Below the pieces are notes generated by a model, which worked only from the letters and a program-made list of their open reading frames with translations, was not told where the DNA came from and made no database searches. Of a stretch of 64,000 nt of DNA, positions 5,590 through 14,799 are shown piece after piece (position 1 is the stretch's first letter; each line of letters opens with the position of its first letter). The translations under genes were made by a program, and so were the position numbers. Origin of the DNA: Asanoa hainanensis (GTDB lineage Bacteria; Actinomycetota; Actinomycetes; Mycobacteriales; Micromonosporaceae); NCBI RefSeq assembly GCF_900188485.1, contig NZ_FZPH01000010.1, forward strand, positions 1 through 64,000, given 5' to 3'.

Positions 5590-5665
5590 TGGTGGGCCGC
5601 CAGGGACTCGAACCCTGAACCTATGGATTAAAAGTCCACTGCTCTGCCGGTTGAGCTAGCGGCCC
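5590..5665 (-). tRNA. tRNA-Lys (anticodon TTT)
   Basis: The complement folds as a complete cloverleaf: seven perfect acceptor pairs (GGGCCGC with GCGGCCC), D arm GCTC/GAGC, anticodon stem GTGGA/TCCAT with loop CTTTTAA (TTT anticodon at complement 5630-5632), T arm CAGGG/CCCTG with TTCGAGT loop, discriminator A, and an encoded CCA at 5590-5592. It is the left boundary of the accessory zone. A second 3' half lies inverted at 6027-6070 and a second 5' part at 14513-14555. Confidence 0.97.
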
Positions 5666-5818
5666 GCGTCAGACAGGATACCGGACCGTAGCAGAGTCAC
5701 CCGTTCACTGGAGGCCCTTGCCGTCGCGGGATGGGCTGCGCGCCGTTTCTGCAGCTCATGTCCCATTTGCGCATAGCGGATGGGGTGGGCGCGTGGTGGC
5801 GATACACGAGATAACGCC

Positions 5819-7563
5819 TCACTGTACGCCCGCGCTCCCGGGGGTTCGACGGAGCTGTGTCGTCGCTCTGTGTAACTGAGGCCAAGGGTTTTCTTGCTCG
5901 AAGTGGCGATATGTTGCCAACATGCGAGCGCCCAGGGGGCCGCCCAGGTCCATACTGGACATTCTGCGGTTCCGTTTGTGCAGGTGGAAGCGTTGTTTCA
6001 AATTCGGATTATTGAGGTCTTGAGGGCTTTTAATCCATAGGTTCCGGGTTCGAGTCCCGGGCGGCCCACCTGAGTCGTTCTCGTGCGAGTGGCTCGCAGG
6101 TGTGCCGACAGCGGCACCTGATCGGCGTGGCACCAGGGCAGAGGCAGCTTCGGCCTTGGCGCGTTCAGACTCTAGCTCGTGCACGACCGAGGTGTAGGTG
6201 TTCGCAGCGACAGTGATGCTCGAGAGCCCGAGTACCTCCTGGATGTCCTTGAGGTCGGATCCGGATGCCTTGAGGAACGTCGCAGCGCAATGCCGCAGGT
6301 CGTGCAGCCGGATCGGCGGCAGCCCGGAACCTGCGACAGGTCGCTCGAACCGATCGCTGACCTGCTCAGGATGCCACTGGCGACCGTCGGGTCGCACGAA
6401 GAACAACTCGGTCTTCGGCCAGGCGGCGTCGGCCCGCCAGCGTTCCCGCCGCTCCTGGTAGTTGCGTAACGCCGTGGTCGTGGAGGCGTCGAGCGCGATG
6501 ATGCGGTCACCGGCGTAACTCTTGACGACCTTGAGCACTGGTCGATAGCCGACCGTCGTGAGCTGCTGAGTGATCGTGGCGGTCCCGCCCGCCAGGTCGA
6601 CGTCGTTCTCGCGCAGGCCGAGTGCTTCGCCGCGACGCAGGCCCCGGTGCAGGATGAGAGCGACGATGGGGTAGACCAAGTCGTCATGGTCCTCGACATG
6701 ATCGAGGAACGCGCCGGCTTGCTCGGGTGTCCACACCATGACGCTGCTGGGTCGTAGTCCCGTCTCCTTCCACTGCTGTACGGCGGCGGAGGTCCATACC
6801 CGCGCCCTCGGTGCTTGAACCGAAGGCAACTCGACGTATGCTGCGGGGTTGGACTCGATGAGCCGATGGGTGCGTATCGCATCGTTGAGGGCTTTGCGCA
6901 GGGTCGCGCGGATACGTTGCATCGTTGCCGGACCCGTCTTACGGACACCCTTGACCGACGCCCGGACCTGGACATCACCGCTGCAGCGGGCGATGTCGAT
7001 CTGGAGGTTGCGGTCGCTGATTCTGTCGAACATCGACTGGAGATGGCCGACTCGGAGCCGATCGATCGGGATGTGACCAAGGTGCGGCACGAGATGGACC
7101 CGGATATGGGTCTCGTAACTGACCAACGTGGTGGGTTGGATCTTGCGACGACTGGCGTGCCACTGCCAGAGGTAGTCACCCGTGGTCATCGCAGAAGATG
7201 CCATGAGCCCGGCCCGGACGCCGCGGGTACAGCATCCCGATCGGGAAACGGCCGACCGCTCTTGGTGTCCCTGAGCATGCGCGCGATCTCGTTGCCGACT
7301 GCGTTGTCGTCACCAGCGAGTTCGAGTAGCGACTGCGCACTGCCACGGTCGACGAGTGCCGCTTCACGGGTAGCGAAACCGAAACGTCGCAGCTGCCACC
7401 GTTTGCCATCGGGCTGCACCGGTAGCTCAATCCGGTAGCCCCACGTGCCGTGGGCGGCGCTCCACGCACCACCGGCACGACGCAGCCTCGGACATGCGGC
7501 GCCGATCTTTTTCCTGTTCTCACCACGACAAGAGCAACTCTTGAACGGCAATCCCCGTGACAT
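5819..7563 (-). pseudogene. tyrosine recombinase (integrase), frameshifted
   Basis: The N-terminal part (ATG 7563, MSRGLPFKSCSCRGENRKKI, then HGTWGYRIELP) is in one frame; near 7190-7215 it shifts, and the core-binding and catalytic domains (MTTGDYLWQWHASRRKIQPT, HIRVHLVPHLGHIPIDRL) continue in another. Catalytic Arg (LHRGLRRGEALGL), Lys (KVVKSY), HxxR (LHDLRH) and Tyr (NTYTSV) are seen. The third-motif histidine is Leu (VLGLSSI instead of LGHSS). The C-terminus reads GGPPGTRTRNLWIKSP, which is the translated tRNA 3' half at 6027-6070, so the true protein end is near 6070 and the frame to 5819 is readthrough. No xis-like gene follows. The enzyme is probably inactive. Confidence 0.85.
6027..6070 (+). 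other. attachment-site copy: inverted tRNA-Lys 3' half
   Basis: On the + strand this segment starts in the anticodon loop (CTTTTAATCC) and runs through variable loop, T arm and acceptor to the first CC of CCA. Compared with the complete tRNA at 5590-5665 it differs in the T stem by a compensatory pair (CCGGG/CCCGG against CAGGG/CCCTG), so it came from another functional tRNA-Lys. It lies inside the 3' end of the integrase gene, as is usual for attP of tRNA-targeting actinobacterial elements. It is oriented opposite to the local tRNA gene. Confidence 0.85.
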
Positions 7564-7866
7564 GAGAATTACTCCCGGTAGGCGCCTGGGCCGTGCGATT
7601 GGGCTCCACCCAGAAGACCGTCCAACCACCCTAAAAGGGTAGAAGAGTAGCGGAGGCGCGATAAGGCGCATCCGTAGTTGCTGCTCAAACGAGTGACAAC
7701 ACCAGCCTGAGTGCCGCGCTGATGGTCACGGGCGAGTGTGTCAGCTCACGGCGACAAGTCATCCACATCAATCCCTGTCGAATCCGTCCATCGTTCGTTG
7801 TGACTCGAGTTCCGGCGCCGAGGTGCTGCTTTGCGAGCGGGTAGTGTCACAGGCGTGACCGCTCCG
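7564..7866. other. gene-free stretch upstream of integrase and formyltransferase
   Basis: No convincing coding frame is seen on either strand. A small perfect hairpin (ACCCT-AAA-AGGGT, 7628-7640) lies about 65 bases upstream of the integrase start. It could be part of an integrase promoter or operator. The excisionase or regulator gene often found here in such elements is missing. Confidence 0.4.
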
Positions 7867-8888
7867 ATGCGTGTTGCCCTTGCGACGTTCGGCATCGATG
7901 AGTTTGCGGCGCTCCGCGCCACCTGCGTTGGGGCGGGCCACGAGCCCGTCGCGTACGTGTATTGCCGCTCGATGAAGCCGAAAGGCCGGACGGATGCTCG
8001 CGCGGCGGCGGTCGCCGGTCGTGTGATGGAGGCGCTTCCGCCGGGCATGGATCTGCTGTTGCCCCCGGTACGGCTGAAGGGTTGTCCGGCGCCCTGGGCG
8101 GATATCGACTGGATCTGCTGGTGGTCTACGGCTTCAACTGGAAGCTGCCCGCGTCCGTGTTGCGTACGCCTCGGTTGGGTGTGATCAACGTTCACTCGTC
8201 GCTGTTGCCCCGGTACCGGGGCCCGGCGCCGGTGTTGTGGGCGATCCGGAACGGTGACGCGGAGATCGGGTTGACGGTCCATCGGATGGACGAGCAGTTC
8301 GACACTGGTCCGATCCTTGCTCAGCGGGGTGGGATCGCGCTGGGGGAGGACGTCAGTCCGCAGCGGTTGTGGCAGCGGGTCAGGCCCGTCCTGGACGAGG
8401 TGCTCACGGTCGCGTTGGACGAGGTGGCGAAGGGTCTTCCCGGGGTTCCGCAGGATGACGCCGGCGCGTCCTACGCGGGGTTCGTGGAGCCTGAGTTCTC
8501 GTTGGTGGATTGGTCGCGTACCGCCGTGCAGGTGCACAACCAGGTGCGGATGTTCGGCTTCATGGGGCCGGATCATGCTCCGGTCGCCGAGGTCGGCGGT
8601 CGGTGGCTGAAGGTGCTGCGGACCCGGCTGAGACCGGCGGACGGCATCCGGGTGCAGTGTGCTGATGCGCCGATCTGGATCGTGGAGTCGGCACCCGCAC
8701 AGTCGCCGCTATTGGTTGCTGAGTGCTCGGGTGATGCGCTCGCGCAGTGCGCTGGCCTCGGGGAAGACGCTGGTAATCCGCGCCGCGGGCGCGACGGACC
8801 CGATGCTTGGACGCTCCGCTGCAGTGGTCACCCGGTGCGGCGCCGCGCTGCGGGCACGGCCAGTCCGAGTCCGGATCCTCGACCGTGA
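7867..8888 (+). pseudogene. methionyl-tRNA formyltransferase-like protein, frameshifted
   Basis: The N-terminal strand-helix (ATG 7867, MRVALATFGIDEFAALRA) is in one frame. After GMDLLLPP, around 8066-8080, the reading continues in another frame with GALGGYRLDLLVVYGFNWKL, INVHSSLLPRYRGPAPVLWA, TVHRMDEQFDTGPIL and PEFSLVDWSRTAVQVHNQVR. These are the N, H and D catalytic signatures and the C-terminal start of the formyl_trans_N/C family (10-formyltetrahydrofolate-dependent N-formylation). The end after WIVESAPA (about 8697) resembles the usual end of related proteins, so the last part to 8888 may be readthrough. GTG 7855 is an alternative start. One indel makes the gene nonfunctional unless the sequence is in error. 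Confidence 0.75.
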
Positions 8889-8967
8889 CGACGCCGTCCG
8901 GCAGCCAGCCACTGTTCGACGGATCGTCAGCAGCCTCGCGGATCGGTAAGCGATCAAGGAACTGCAT
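8709..8967 (-). pseudogene. possible small gene remnant, unrecognised
   Basis: From a possible start at 8967 (MQFLDRLPIREAADDPSNSG, then WLPDGVVTVEDPDSDWPC) the codon use is GC-rich at third positions for about 45 codons. The apparent continuation (RPSIGSVAPAARITSVFPEA, SALRERITRALSNQ) is in another frame ending at 8709. It overlaps the tail of the formyltransferase remnant on the other strand. I do not recognise it, and it may be noise; it is listed because the amino acid composition looks protein-like. Confidence 0.25.
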
Positions 8968-8994
8968 TCGCGAGGTGTAACGGGATCAGGGGCT

Positions 8995-10149
8995 TCACTC
9001 GTCGAGTGCTGCCAGGTCGAGGCGTTCGAGGAGGCTGGGTTTGCGGGCGTGGGCCGTCCGCAGTTCTGCCAATCGCTGCCGGAACGGTGCGGTGGCGTGG
9101 TCGCGTTCGGCGAGGTCACCCAGGTCGGTGAGGAGTTGAACGGCGGCGTCGTAGTCGCGGGGTTTCTTGGCGGCGATGAGGTCGTGGATCTGCTGCCACG
9201 CGCCGGGTTGGTCGGCCGCGAGGGCGTCGAGGTGTCGTTGCCGTGCCGCGGCAGCGGACCGTTCCCGGCGGACGCGGTCCTGTTCGCGTTGTTGGGCTTC
9301 GCGGCGTTGCCGTTCGACGCGGATTTCGGCGGCTGCCGCGAGGATTTCTCCCGCGGTGCGCCGGGTGGCGGGGGCAGCGGGTGTCGTGGCGGGCTGTTCG
9401 TCGCGGTAGCGGCGTAGCAGGCCGCTTCGGACATGGTTGTCGCTGCCGGTGATCAGATCGGTGAGGATCTTGTCCTTGTCCCGGGCGGCAAGGCCGGTGA
9501 CCCATGTGCGAAGTTGAGCACGGCTCGGTTCCTCGGCGGTGGCCGGCGCGGAGCCGGCCGCCGCGGCCGCGAGCAGGTCGGGGTCGACGCATAGAAAGTC
9601 GGCGATCGCGGTAAGGGATGCGTCGAGCGTGCCCAGCCCGGCGGGAACCGGCGGTTCCGGTTCGTCGTCGGAGAGTTCTTCCGATTGCAGGCACCGGAGC
9701 CAGCCGAGGTAGAGCAGTCGCAGGTCACCGGCGGCGAGGGCGGCCCTGGCCGGGATGATCGAGGCGAGCAGGCCGTCTCCGCCGATGTCGAACTCGTCGA
9801 CGCCTTCTTCGTCCTCGCGGTGCAGGTGGATGATGATGTGCTGGCCCGCGGTCCACGCCGACGCGCCGTCGCCCACGCAGTAGTCGGCGGCCACCGCCGG
9901 GTCGAGCACGCGCTTCGGGAGCCGGAGCATGAGTTGACGGGTGCCCCAGTTCGTCAGGTACAGATGAGCGTCGAAGTAACGTTCCATCATCCGCTGCGGG
10001 TCGCCTTTGAAGTTGCCCCACTCGTAGGTGTTGACGAAGCTGGTGGCGGTGATGTCGGCGCGGGTCGACAGCGCCCGCAGTTCGGCCCGCTCACGGGCGG
10101 TGAGAGGCCGGTCGACGGCGGTGAACTCGTAGTACTGGTACTCGCTCAC
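8995..10149 (-). CDS. conserved protein of unknown function (MSEYQYYEF family)
   Basis: This intact 384-residue protein begins MSEYQYYEFTAVDRPLTARE and contains TRADITATSFVNTYEWGNFK, MERYFDAHLYLTNWGTRQLM and RLPKRVLDP. I know this start from a widespread family of bacterial hypothetical proteins with no assigned function. The middle (about 120-150) is acidic; the region of about 260-310 is Arg/Glu/Gln-rich and probably a coiled coil; the end (KPRDYDAAVQLLTDLGDLAE) is helical and could be TPR-like. It is six bases downstream of the small gene at 10156-10467, forming a two-gene operon. It is divergent from the TOTE-type primase-helicase. It is one of the few undamaged genes in the island. Confidence 0.8.
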   Translation of the reverse strand: MSEYQYYEFTAVDRPLTARERAELRALSTRADITATSFVNTYEWGNFKGDPQRMMERYFDAHLYLTNWGTRQLMLRLPKRVLDPAVAADYCVGDGASAWTAGQHIIIHLHREDEEGVDEFDIGGDGLLASIIPARAALAAGDLRLLYLGWLRCLQSEELSDDEPEPPVPAGLGTLDASLTAIADFLCVDPDLLAAAAAGSAPATAEEPSRAQLRTWVTGLAARDKDKILTDLITGSDNHVRSGLLRRYRDEQPATTPAAPATRRTAGEILAAAAEIRVERQRREAQQREQDRVRRERSAAAARQRHLDALAADQPGAWQQIHDLIAAKKPRDYDAAVQLLTDLGDLAERDHATAPFRQRLAELRTAHARKPSLLERLDLAALDE

Positions 10150-10155
10150 GCCCGG

Positions 10156-10467
10156 TTACCTTCCTGCCCAGTGTCGGAAGGCGTCAATCCAGTCGACGCC
10201 GTCCGGTGGCGGGGTGGGCAGGGGTAGGTCGAGCAGGTCAATCCGCTGCCGGTCGCGGCCACGGGTGCAGATCGCCGCGATGCTGTCGCCGGTCAGGTCG
10301 ACCTTGCGCACAGTGACCTCGACACCGAGGATCGTGGTGCTGAACGGCACCGCCAGGTTCTCTTCGATCATGGTGTAGAGGCCGGTGAGCTGTTCGTCGT
10401 CGTTGTAAGCGTCGACGGTGGCTTCTTCGATCATCGCTTCGAGCGCCGCAACCCGCTTCGCTGCCAT
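10156..10467 (-). CDS. small acidic protein, probable partner of the downstream gene
   Basis: The 103-residue protein starts MAAKRVAALEAMIEEATVDA, followed by YNDDEQLTGLYTMIEENLAV, then beta strands (TTILGVEVTVRKVDLTG, IAAICTRGRDRQRIDLL) and a final WIDAFRHWAGR. It resembles small proteins often labelled 'calcium-binding protein' that lie next to the MSEYQYYEF family, but I see no EF-hand and would not infer metal binding. The ATG at 10467 lies 52 bases from the ATG of the divergent primase-helicase, so the two units share a promoter region. Confidence 0.72.
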   Translation of the reverse strand: MAAKRVAALEAMIEEATVDAYNDDEQLTGLYTMIEENLAVPFSTTILGVEVTVRKVDLTGDSIAAICTRGRDRQRIDLLDLPLPTPPPDGVDWIDAFRHWAGR

Positions 10468-10519
10468 CGACAGATGGTAGCGACCCCTCCGCTGGAGGGT
10501 CCTATGCCGGTCTACGAGG

Positions 10520-12888
10520 ATGGTCGGTGTGGGTGGGGTGGACGAGTTCGCCGGTCTTCGCCGGGAGGTCGAGCGTTTACGGGCGGAGAACGCCCGCCTT
10601 GCACGGCTGCTGGAGCTGCGCGGTCAGGACATTGGTCCGGCGCCTGAGCAGCTGGCGGCGCCGGTCGCCGCGCCGGGCCTGGTCACGATGAACTCCCCGG
10701 TGCGGGACAAGCTGGACCTGTTCACCAGCCTGTTCCAGGCCCGCAACGACGTGTACGCGACGCGGTGGGAGAACCGCCGGCTCGGTACGGCCGGTTGGTC
10801 ACCTGCGGTCGCCGGTGGCTGGCGTAAGGGGATGGACCGGCGTAGCGCCGCGTACCTGCCCCGGACGGCGGAGGTCGTCGCCGCCCATCTCGTCGGCGAC
10901 GTGTTCATGGGGCTGTACCCCTTGATGACCGGCAACACCTGCCATTTTGTGGTGGCCGACTTCGACGGCCCGACGGCGATGCTCGACGCCCTCGCCTACA
11001 CCAAGGCGGCACGGACCAGCGGCGCCCCGACCGGGCTGGAGATTTCCCAGTCGGGACGCGGAGCCCACGTGTGGATCTTCTTCGCCGGCCCGGTTCTGGC
11101 GGCGGTCGCCAGAGGGGTCGGCACAGTGCTGCTGCACGAGGCGATGGTGCTGCGCGGGTCGATGGACCTGCGCTCGTACGACCGGCTCTTTCCCAACCAG
11201 GACGTCTTACCGGAGGGCGGTTTCGGGAACCTGATCGCCGCGCCGCTGCAGGGCCGCCGTCGTAACGACCACGGGCTGACCACCTTCCTCGACCTTGCCA
11301 CGTTGGAGCCGTACGAGGACCAGTGGGCGTTCCTGTCGACGCTGGACCGGCTCAGCCCGGGCGATGCCGAACGCCTCGCCCGGCAGGCGAAACGTGCCAC
11401 CACCGGCACCGACGTCGCCTCGATGAGCCGATCCGCCGCGACCCGCGTCCATCCCGCCCTACCGCTGGAGGTTCACGCGGAGGTCGGCGCCGGCCTGAGC
11501 ATCGACGCGGCACAACTGACCCCGGCCGCCCTCGCCACGTTCAAGCACGTAGCCGCGATGGCGAACCCGAAGTTCTACGAGCTGCAACGCCTGCGCAAGT
11601 CGACCTGGGACACCCCGCGCTTCATCCGCGGCTACGACCTCACCCTCGACTAGCGCCTCATCCTGCCGCGCGGCCTGCGCCACGCCGTCACCACGATCGT
11701 CGAACAGGCCGGATCACGGCTGGCCGTCACCGACGTACGCAACCCGGGCCGGGAGATCGATGTCGCATTCACCGCCGCACTCACCACCAGGCAGAGCACC
11801 GCGGTTGGTGAAGTGCTGGCCCATGATGACGGGCTGCTCGTCGCACCGCCCGGTTCCGGGAAGACGGTCATGGCCTGCGCCGTGATCGCCGAGCGAGGCG
11901 CCTCCACCCTGGTGCTCGTCGACCGTAAGGCCCTGGCCGACCAGTGGCGGGAGCGCGTTGAACAGTTCCTCGGCGTCCGCGCCGGCCAGCTCGGCGGTGG
12001 CCGGCGAAAGCTCACCGGAACGGTGGACATCGCCCTGCTGCCATCCCTGGCACGGCGCGACGACATCGCCGGCCTCACCGAGGGGTACGGGCACGTAATC
12101 GTTGACGAGTGCCACCACCTCGGCGCCGCCGCGTACGAGCACTCCGTCAAGCGCATCGCGGCGCAGTTCTGGCTTGGGCTCACCGCCACCCCCACCCGCC
12201 GCGACGGGCTCGGCCAACTCGTCACCTGGCAACTCGGCCCCGTGCGGCACACCATGACCGAGGAAGAGCAAGGCCCCTCGCCGCCGCGCTGGAGTTCAAC
12301 ACCGGCCCACAACGACTCCTGCACGTCCACGAGACCAAGTTCCAAGCCGCCGACGTGGACCTGGACGCACCGGGTGCGCTCGCCGAGGTGCACCGGCTCC
12401 TGGCTGTTGCAGAGCCGCGGAACACGCAGATCGCCGCCGACGTCACCGCCGCGCTTGCCCGCGGGCGAAACTGCCTTGTCCTCACCCGCCGAGTCGCCCA
12501 CGTCGAGGCCCTCACCGCGATGCTTGCCGCGCGTGGGTATCAGCCGCTTGTCCTGCAAGGCTCGATGACCACCACCGACCGGCGGGCCGCCGTCGGCCGG
12601 CTCGCCGACGCCAAGGCCGGTGACGGACTACTCGTCATCGGCACCGCACCATTCATCGGCGAAGGCTTCGACGCCCCAGCACTCGACACCCTCTTCCTCG
12701 CCGGCCCAATCTCCTACGACGGCCTGCTCATCCAATGCGCCGGCCGCGTGATCCGCGCAGCACCCGGCAAGGACGTCGCCGAGGTCCACGACTACCACGA
12801 CCCGGCGACGCCGGTCCTCGCCGCCTCGCTCCAACGCCGCATGCCCGGCTACCGCGCACTCGGCTTCACCAAGACCGGCGAACGTTGA
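10520..12888 (+). pseudogene. TOTE-type AEP primase / SF2 helicase, stop plus frameshift
   Basis: Read through two lesions, the gene gives about 789 codons, the usual full length. The order is an N-terminal coiled coil (LRREVERLRAENARLARLLE); an archaeo-eukaryotic primase domain with LYPLMTGNTCHFVVADFDGP (DxD acid pair near residue 148), SGRGAHVWIFF and SYDRLFPNQDVLPEGGFGNL; then an SF2 helicase with Walker A (APPGSGKTV), DECH box (IVDECHH), GLTATPTRRD and motif VI (QCAGRVIRA). A TAG at 11651-11653 interrupts the frame between the two domains, and an indel near 12267-12282 shifts the frame after MTEEEQG. The family belongs to the so-called TOTE conflict systems thought to act against invading DNA. 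Only the primase half (377 residues) is expressed intact. Confidence 0.85.
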
Positions 12889-13371
12889 TCTGAACGCCGC
12901 AGCGCACCCACCCGCGCGATCGCAATGTGATCCTACGGCGATCGGACGTTCAGCACCTGGCGAGCACGACCGCCACAGAACCAGCACAGCAGACCTACCT
13001 CGACACGTTGAACAAGCTCCGAGGAGGTACGAGATCACGTAGACCTGCGGATACGTGCCGAACCGTTCGAGTACAACACCTTGCGAAGCAACACGTCCAG
13101 CGAGTGAGTACTCGCGGGCGAGGGAAACTCAGCCAGTCTGACTACGGATCAGAAGGTTGTAACTGGTGTCGTCGTTGTGCAGCGCTGGTGGAGCCGATCA
13201 GCAAGATCCACTTGAGTGTGTTCGAGTTCGCCTGCTGGATAGTCACGCGCCTGGTCCCGTGGATCAGCCGCTGAACGTCGCACACGCCGATCACCTTGCC
13301 CGCGACGTCAGCCCATTTCGTACCTCGGCAAACTGGCCGGCCCCAACGAGCGGACGGCCCTGGCGAAGGTC
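12889..13371. other. stretch without a recognisable gene
   Basis: All open frames here have poor composition for this genome. In the frame of the next gene, the stretch just before 13372 (YLGKLAGPNERTALAKVVD) looks protein-like, so the original 5' end of that broken gene may lie near 13320. Nothing else is seen. Confidence 0.4.
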
Positions 13372-14076
13372 GTGGATTGCATCGCCAGGGCCGTAGCGAC
13401 ATCGTCTCAGAGGGGCGGTGTCGCGTGGGTCGTGGTTACCGGCGTGGTGGTGCTTGCGGTCTCCGTGGTCTGGGTTGCGCGCTCCGTCGTCGGCGGCGGA
13501 GATGCACCTGCGTCGGGCGATATGGCGTTCGGGTGTCTGATGGAGGTCAACGAGCCCGACCACGACTACTGGCGGCGGGTGGCTGCCGACGTCGCGGACC
13601 GTGCCCGGTTGACCGCCGAGCAGCGCCAACGAGTCGAGGCGATCACACCGACCGTGACGCGCGTCGCGGGTGGCGGCTGTCTGCATCTCGACCCGTCCTG
13701 CCGGGGACGCGGATCGTCACATCCACCTACCGATGAGGACCTCGACATCGCCCGTCGCGGGCTCGAGCAGTTCGGCGCGGAGGAGGTGACGGTGCGGCTG
13801 GCCGTGCGGACGACCCTGCGCCGGCGGGCGCGCTGGTTTATGCGACGCTTGAAGCGCTGGCCCGGCTGGCCGCCGACGGCGACTACGACCCGCAGAACCA
13901 GTATCTGCCGGGCACCCGTCAGCGGATGGGAGGACGTGGCCTCGCCCGAAGCCGAACGCCGGATTCTGCGCTACCTCTGGGCCGGGCTGGCGGATTGGCG
14001 ACCCGGGCGGTGGAACCTGATGCTCGCCGCCAACGTCGTCGGGGTACAGAGATCGGGGCTCAGCATTTCGTGGTAA
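13372..14076 (+). pseudogene. membrane protein of unknown function, probably twice frameshifted
   Basis: The start reads GTG at 13372 and includes one strong transmembrane helix (VAWVVVTGVVVLAVSVVWVA), then RRVAADVADRARLTAEQRQR and DEDLDIARRGLEQFGAEEVT. Protein-like sequence then moves to another frame (ALVYATLEALARLAADGDYD, then PQNQYLPGTRQRM) and back (DVASPEAERRILRYLWAGLA, then DWRPGRWNLM). Two compensating indels are the simplest reading. The domain is not recognised. A single-pass membrane protein with an extracytoplasmic helical domain is the most that can be said. Confidence 0.5.
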
Positions 14077-14512
14077 CCCCCACTGTTTCGACCGAGTCGT
14101 GGACCCGTCGGCGACACCAGGGCTCGGGATACGGCAACGCCTTCCGTGAGGCGCTCCTGCATGTAGAGGGCTCGAATTCGGCGGCGGAACCGGCCGGCTC
14201 AAGCGGGATCGACGAATCCAGGAACCGGCCGAGGAACTTGGCGCGATTGCCGGCGAACGCTCTCCCCGGTGAGTGCCGGTCCGCATCCTCGGCAGCGGCT
14301 CGGGTGCTCCGTGGGTGCTCGGATGGCGGCGACGCCTGACGGATTCGTTGGCTGGATTCCGGATTCCGGCCGCCAGCGCCTATTCACGGGCTGAACACCG
14401 TAAGTGACGACCGCGCTGACCTAGCGATACTCCGCCACTGGTAATCGGATTTACAGGCAAGAATCCGGACGCCGACACTAAACGTTTAGTAGCGGGGGCG
14501 AAGACAGCCGCT
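14077..14512. other. gene-free stretch with a palindrome near the tRNA fragment
   Basis: No coding frame is convincing. A perfect 14-bp palindrome, ACTAAACGTTTAGT (14477-14490), lies 23 bases from the tRNA-Lys 5' fragment. Base composition from about 14420 is less GC-rich than the surroundings. The palindrome could be an operator or an integrase arm site. Confidence 0.4.
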
Positions 14513-14555
14513 GTGCATTAAAAGTACACTGCTCTGCCGGTTGAGCTAGCAGCCC
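14513..14555 (-). other. truncated tRNA-Lys (5' 43 nt only)
   Basis: The complement reads from the tRNA 5' end (GGGCTGC) through the D arm (GCTC/GAGC) to a complete anticodon stem-loop (GTGTA-CTTTTAA-TGCAC). The anticodon stem differs from the full tRNA at 5590-5665 but still pairs, with compensatory changes. T arm and 3' acceptor are absent. The 25 bases beyond its 5' end also resemble those upstream of the full tRNA (CAGG-TACC-GACC). It has the same orientation as the full gene, so the two form a direct repeat enclosing 8.9 kb. It cannot give a functional tRNA on its own. Confidence 0.85.
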
Positions 14556-14799
14556 GCGGTGGTCAGGCTACCTGACCTGCGGTGAAACGTGGAGCCGGTT
14601 ACCGGGTTCGTGCCCCGTTTCGGCAGGTCTGCCGAACACTCGAACAACTCTCGAGCAGCCAAGCTGGCCGTAGCCGGGCAGGTCGAAGGGGCTTCGTGAG
14701 CTCGAACGGCGACGCATGGACGGGCGCTGGCCGGGCGGGTGTGGGCCAGGCCACGTCCCTACGTCGTTGACTCCCGGTCGGTCAGCGTCCGGCTTTGGC

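Follow-up and report, generated by a model that had tools for sequence, protein, structure and literature searches.

The first 64,000 nucleotides of contig NZ_FZPH01000010.1 of Asanoa hainanensis (hereafter, the window) contain an island of about 8.9 kb that encodes a tyrosine integrase and lies within the anticodon loop of a host tRNA-Lys gene. The history of this locus that we favor, with a probability of roughly 60%, is integration of the tRNA-dependent type followed by inversion of a 392-bp spacer (hereafter, the flip) that would have fused one half of a tRNA carried by the island to one half of the host tRNA. This reading builds on the native 5' half of the host gene, displaced together with its upstream DNA, on two segments, S and X, that are the two arms of the attachment (att) site of the island (attP), and on relatives in which the host tRNA is split and a spare is carried. 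The relevant features of the window are:

5590-5665, minus strand: complete tRNA-Lys(TTT), consisting of a 3' part of host type (5590-5626), the core (5627-5634) and a 5' half (5635-5665) joined to an island leader
5666-6026, no strand assigned: spacer S, which includes the new leader of the tRNA (5666-5690) and is an arm of attP when read towards 6027
5926-5934, plus strand: arm motif GAGCGCCCA in spacer S
6027-6070, plus strand: core (6027-6034) and inverted 3' half of tRNA-Lys, the putative att junction S - core - 3' half
14301-14516, minus strand: arm X of attP, with a pair of arm motifs (14312-14320 and 14301-14309)
14517-14555, minus strand: core (14517-14524) and displaced host 5' half (14525-14555), the putative att junction 5' half - core - X
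14556-14759, minus strand: native upstream DNA of the host tRNA-Lys, matching all five congeners past the tRNA

The single tRNA predicted by ARAGORN in the window is the tRNA-Lys(TTT) at 5590-5665 on the minus strand. A repeat search of the window yielded an inverted repeat pair (5591-5637 and 6024-6070; 47 nt, 94% identity) and a direct repeat pair (5621-5687 and 14511-14577; 67 nt, 85% identity, spacing 8,890). When the 76-nt tRNA was compared to the whole genome, the three places in the window came out as the first, third and fourth best matches (E-values 1.9e-33, 9.8e-14 and 2.7e-11), and therefore the pieces are not chance similarities; the second best match is a full-length one (89%) on another contig. 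The three tRNA-Lys pieces reported in an initial annotation of the window are thus real and located where they had been placed. Each piece contains one copy of the 8-bp core CTTTTAAT (5627-5634, 6027-6034 and 14517-14524), which occurs nowhere else on either strand of the window. The inverted 3' half is identical to the complete tRNA at 42 of 44 positions, and the two 5' halves are identical to each other at 37 of 39 positions, with G30 of the anticodon stem replaced by T in the piece at 14.5 kb. The direct repeat with a spacing of about 8.9 kb described in the initial annotation is present but is not confined to the tRNA, extending into the leader. Similarly, the anticodon stem of the 5' part, considered intact there, is completed by the bases that first follow the core, and these bases differ in M. 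zingiberis and genome G292, the two other genomes in which the junction of the 5' half with the core was read.

Judging from sequence comparison, the piece at 14.5 kb is the host's own 5' half because its upstream DNA precedes an intact tRNA in all five congeners. The genus was represented by six genomes including that of the window, and each of the five congeners compared has one tRNA-Lys (97-100% identity). The DNA from position 14556 onward matches the upstream DNA of this gene in all five, for 53-269 nt past the tRNA (E-values 3e-7 to 2e-47). On the island side, the congener matches extend at most 22 nt beyond the tRNA, and spacer positions 5666-6023 produced no match at the tRNA loci of the five congeners at an E-value of 1e-3. 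The downstream flank is kept in one congener, G001, as a 96-nt piece (81% identity) that is part of the gene beside 5590 and is located at about the same distance from the tRNA as in the window. This gene, which is lipoprotein-like, has matches of 32-37% elsewhere in four of the five congeners (E-value limit 1e-20), none of them at the tRNA, and only the G001 piece is syntenic. When the two host halves are put together, with 14525-14555 as the 5' half, the G001 tRNA is reproduced with one difference. Taken together, the native upstream DNA, the downstream DNA and the joined halves place the island between the two outer cores, with G001 as the best empty site. A 5' fragment at this place without any element, proposed in the initial annotation as evidence that would overturn it, was sought; in all five congeners, an intact tRNA-Lys is found behind the homologous leader. 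The locus does not show the hallmark of classic integration that restores the 3' half of the target: native upstream DNA precedes the displaced 5' half, not the complete tRNA. The sequence TAnCCT is found nine bases before the tRNA both in the leader of the complete tRNA and in the native leaders.

Further evidence comes from seven genomes that encode integrases with 54-62% identity to that of the window and were searched for tRNA-Lys pieces. In three of these relatives (G248, G214 and G297), the host tRNA-Lys is split, and a complete spare is located inside, on the opposite strand, a layout known from tRNA-dependent lysogeny. The 5' and 3' halves, 100% identical to the query and sharing 11-16 bp, enclose the integrase gene and one complete, diverged tRNA-Lys (86-89% identity); the stems of the spare are self-matching (GAGGA/TCCTT and CTGGG/CCCAG). 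A Replic_Relax protein is encoded near the integrase in G248. In the window, no separate, complete carried tRNA gene is seen, only an inverted 3' half and a 5' half fused to the 3' half of the host. Among 23 integrase loci (L093-L115), a near-whole tRNA-Lys match is located near the integrase in L093 (M. zingiberis), L094 and L096. Genome G170 has a 5' half with X, plus two complete copies on other contigs. In G236, a complete tRNA-Lys follows the integrase gene after 400 bp, on the opposite strand, with a carried-type 3' half 28 kb further on; no 5' half was found in this genome. These carried-type sequences of G236 (L094 3002-3075 and L135 1588-1632) are inverted repeats, 28 kb apart, that extend beyond the tRNA; perhaps, a second copy integrated into the carried tRNA of the first island.

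The arms of attP point to the location and direction of the att junctions. Arm X is conserved after the 5' half and core in M. zingiberis, G292 and G170. The motif GAGCACCCA was first noticed in X and then scanned for with one mismatch allowed. X has two copies between +196 and +211 relative to the core in the window, G292 and G170, and a single copy in M. zingiberis; in S, the motif occurs once, at -101 from the core at 6027, in the window, M. zingiberis and G292. For G248, G214, G297 and G236, both side and strand are switched: the motif is found at -185 to -217, as a pair in G248 and G236 and as a single copy in G214 and G297, with one further copy at +93 or +114 in G248 and G214, and none there in G297. 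The background is 17 matches in 126,178 positions. The arms were also aligned to those of the relatives with about 60% identical integrases, with z-scores derived from 200 single-base shuffles per pair. Compared with the reverse complement of the relatives' left arm (beside the 3' half), X gave z-scores of at least 4 in 14 of 16 pairs (-0.2 and 3.0 in the others), and S, compared with the reverse complement of their right arm (beside the 5' half), gave 2.4 to 6.6 in 11 of 12 pairs (0.3 in the other), against -1.4 to 2.7 for the 28 same-orientation pairs. A search for a motif common to S and X found a best direct 10-mer with a score of 27 of 30, compared with a maximum of 24 in only 30 column shuffles. 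Because of the phasing of the arm motif and the arm homology to these relatives, the attP of the window island family is most likely S - core - X, mirrored relative to that of the relatives. The att junctions of the window would then most likely be those at 14517 and 6027, which would face each other, so that some inversion would separate the locus from plain integration. To this extent, the succession of integration and inversion proposed in the initial annotation is retained; the 8.5-kb turn in the window strain is not.

Under the route we favor, integration would have cut the host gene, leaving its 5' half with the native promoter at 14517 and above, and its 3' half at 5634 and below. Like its relatives, the island would have brought its own complete tRNA-Lys, located directly behind the integrase gene with a strand opposite that of the host gene, and the pre-flip state would be host 5' half - X ... 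integrase - carried tRNA (opposite strand) - S - core - host 3' half. The carried tRNA would then have undergone a second exchange, at CTTTTAAT, with the last of these junctions (S - core - host 3' half). This would turn 392 bp, so that the host 3' half became attached to the leader and 5' half of the island, forming the complete tRNA at 5590-5665, and the island's own 3' half was left inverted beside the integrase gene. Starting from the split-plus-spare state of the three relatives, this small inversion is enough, and one of 8.5 kb is not needed. The flip would have come after integration and was probably made by the integrase; RecA acting on the 44-nt inverted repeat could have made it too. 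With the two att junctions now in facing orientation, clean excision is probably hindered. It would keep the host supplied with tRNA-Lys and may lock the island in place.

The T-stems bear on the position of the exchange. In the window, the 3' half of the complete tRNA has the host T-stem, as in all five congeners. The T-stem of the complete tRNA in M. zingiberis and G292 is that of the host 3' halves of three Micromonospora-like relatives, and in A. subtropicus it is that of seven of the eight complete Actinoplanes copies. With the host T-stem in the complete tRNA and a different inverted half, the exchange is placed before tRNA position 50, which would fit the core and would also fit homologous recombination early in the repeat. 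In the inverted half, T-stem positions 50 and 64 stay paired, as C-G in two islands (window and A. subtropicus) and as G-C in the other two (M. zingiberis and G292), as if this half derived from a tRNA that works at times.

The same arrangement is found beyond the window. The spacer is present in 4 of 354 genomes of the family, the window genome included, and the order complete tRNA - spacer - inverted 3' half recurs in the three further genomes; accordingly, an inversion private to the window strain was rejected. The nearest integrases are those of M. zingiberis (92% identity, L021) and A. subtropicus (91%, L022). M. zingiberis matches window positions 5592-7607 at 91% identity, from no more than two bases off the 3' end of the tRNA through the spacer and inverted 3' half into the integrase gene, and has a 5' half ending at the core 46.8 kb away. 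G292 again has the complete tRNA, inverted 3' half and integrase gene and, at a distance of 15.2 kb, a 5' half that likewise terminates at the core. In both genomes, as in the window, the complete tRNA and the displaced 5' half are direct repeats at the island ends. The stretch of A. subtropicus that spans the complete tRNA, the spacer and the inverted half has 84% identity to window positions 5590-6070; the tyrosine integrase gene is on another contig, where the match is cut nine bases into the tRNA and followed by unrelated DNA, and no displaced 5' half was found in this genome. The inverted 3' half of A. subtropicus is adjoined by a large serine recombinase gene (PF00239 and PF07508). A 50% identical relative of this recombinase runs into a complete tRNA-Lys in G023; in that genome, tRNA-Lys also comes after the integrase gene, and there is no inverted half. 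The idea that tyrosine and serine integrases trade the spacer was considered and rejected on the evidence of G023 and the A. subtropicus contigs. Most likely, a second tRNA-Lys-targeting island landed in the A. subtropicus inverted half and separated it from the tyrosine integrase gene (L041 10411-11988 and L022 11125-12997); the two contigs do not join. Two scans of viral contigs detected neither the spacer nor a close integrase, and the integrases of phage (225) and plasmid (34) records are all less than 60% identical.

Several observations weigh against the proposed route. No clean split-plus-spare state was seen in four of the seven relatives (G236, G170, G175 and G380). The 5' half of the complete tRNA (5635-5665) has a CCGG D-loop, as in all five congeners, and the A. 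subtropicus 5' half (L041 10041-10077) has the GAGGA stem of six of the eight complete Actinoplanes copies; an island-borne 5' half does not predict such host-like sequences without gene conversion, which is possible. No unflipped copy with the window spacer was found, all four known copies being flipped, which could reflect bias, locking or common descent. The downstream flank is supported by one of the five congeners, and for part of the gene only. As for the arms, GAGCACCCA was chosen after the data were seen; S of A. subtropicus has no match to it within one mismatch; off-pattern matches occur on the minus strand in the window (-137) and A. subtropicus (-319), and also in G297 (+358), in G236 beyond its 3' halves and in G170 C7 (-126). 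Moreover, there is no similarity between S of the window and G248 (z 0.3) or between X of M. zingiberis and G297 (z -0.2).

A possible, if rather doubtful, alternative is that the exchange between attP and the carried tRNA occurred once, in an ancestral circle. From then on, attP would have been 5' half - core - X, the host tRNA would be rebuilt at every integration with the leader and 5' half of the island, and the inverted 3' half would be a fossil passed on by descent. Such stable integration by the 5' half is in accord with the arrangement shared by all four copies and the lack of an unflipped one, with the displaced 5' halves of M. zingiberis and G292, which reach precisely to the core, and with the direct repeats formed by the complete tRNA and the displaced 5' half; the 5'-half type is reported from archaea and rarely from bacteria (PMC8371274). 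It fits poorly with the S arm, whose phasing and homology refer to the core at 6027 and not to that of the complete tRNA, and with the supposed fossil, which stays paired across islands. Somewhat more doubtful is the idea that the 392-bp spacer is a switch worked by the integrase: the direct orientation of the att sites would let the island leave, and the facing orientation would turn excision into inversion and lock the island, with exactly one working tRNA-Lys either way. If so, the locked state would be expected to prevail among surviving copies, and it is the state of all four known copies.

The model of the initial annotation, in which the approximately 8.5 kb between 6034 and 14517 were inverted by the integrase or by homologous recombination from a form with two tRNAs, appears quite unlikely. 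In its favor, the att junctions share the core and have facing orientations, the expected product looks no different, and turning the segment around indeed yields a second tRNA-Lys-like sequence, with one damaged anticodon-stem pair (T at position 30). However, this requires an ancestor whose chromosome contained an unused attP as well as two complete tRNA-Lys genes; no such uninverted form was seen in the genomes searched, and the arrangement is common to three other genomes with islands of different length. An assembly or chance artefact is highly improbable: the genome is a draft in 44 contigs, but the matches are strong, and the same arrangement appears in independent assemblies, in G292 on a single contig. 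The route we favor, integration followed by the 392-bp flip, is the one retained below.

The island encodes the following additional features:

5819-7204, minus strand: tyrosine integrase open reading frame (ORF), 461 codons, open frame
7186-7671, minus strand: 161-codon ORF upstream of the integrase gene, with DNA up to 7607 common with M. zingiberis
8995-12888, no strand assigned: cargo, including a TOTE-type primase (10520-11653) and helicase pieces in broken frames

The integrase contains domains PF00589 (E-value 3e-18) and PF14659 (E-value 4.3e-6). Past about 6080, its frame runs through the inverted 3' half into spacer S, and this tail shows no codon-position bias, with 13, 16 and 12 differences at the three codon positions relative to M. 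zingiberis and 20, 21 and 16 relative to G292, compared with 12, 15 and 46 in the body. These even differences led to rejection of the idea that S encodes a functional integrase tail which the flip would swap. The 161-codon ORF has no match in Pfam or PHROGs. The TOTE conflict-system primase and helicase pieces (10520-12888) are interrupted by a stop and frame changes, and a formyltransferase-like gene near the integrase gene (7831-8888) is in two frames; DNA homology common with A. subtropicus reaches position 8763. The window island looks old and partly decayed. The island ends are common across genomes while the cargo differs. The G292 island (L058 1780-11581) encodes BilC-like, GASH, two double-GTPase, GAP1-N1/EAD1 and caspase/EAD1 proteins and looks like a defence cluster. 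G292 also has a second tyrosine integrase ORF immediately downstream of the complete tRNA-Lys (L057 15249-16580), and another element may share the tRNA-Lys site there.

The closest known system appears to be tRNA-dependent lysogeny, described for phages of Mycobacterium and Gordonia that often use tRNA-Lys-TTT and cores of 8-17 bp (Guerrero-Bustamante and Hatfull 2024, PMC10865867). As outlined in that source, it shares with the window locus a tyrosine integrase, a host attachment site (attB) in tRNA-Lys-TTT and a short core; a host tRNA that is not rebuilt at the att junctions, which in the window rests on the arm assignment; and carriage of a tRNA of the same kind, complete in G248, G214 and G297 and as halves in the window. 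The outlined system is one of phages, whereas among six window proteins only the integrase and the primase have PHROGs matches; furthermore, the window shows the carried tRNA fused to the host 3' half, and the 3' half that it came with lies inverted next to the integrase gene. Integration by the 5' half, outlined for pTN3-like integrases of archaea and rare bacterial cases (PMC8371274), likewise features a displaced host 5' half and a complete tRNA with an element-derived leader; in contrast to it, the phasing of the arms in the window appears to follow S - core and core - X rather than the 5' half of the complete tRNA. The polarity of attP relative to the tRNA core is mirrored between window-type integrases and those of G248, G214, G297 and G236. 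Differing attP polarity among related integrases has a known precedent, resembling the difference between the window family and G248, G214 and G297, although what is outlined of that precedent includes no spacer flip between attP and a carried tRNA. Searches of open-access titles and abstracts yielded no description of such a flip. Islander, a program which maps islands from tRNA fragments, is described as rejecting fragments in opposite orientation, and therefore such features can be missed.

We regard the window locus as a variant of known tRNA-targeting integration and infer when the flip happened and what made it. If this reading is true, tRNA-dependent integration, described for phages, would extend to islands of Micromonosporaceae, and one exchange at a shared core would be a simple route between bringing a spare tRNA and rebuilding that of the host. 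If the integrase works the flip, it would provide a way to lock an island in without the loss of an important tRNA.

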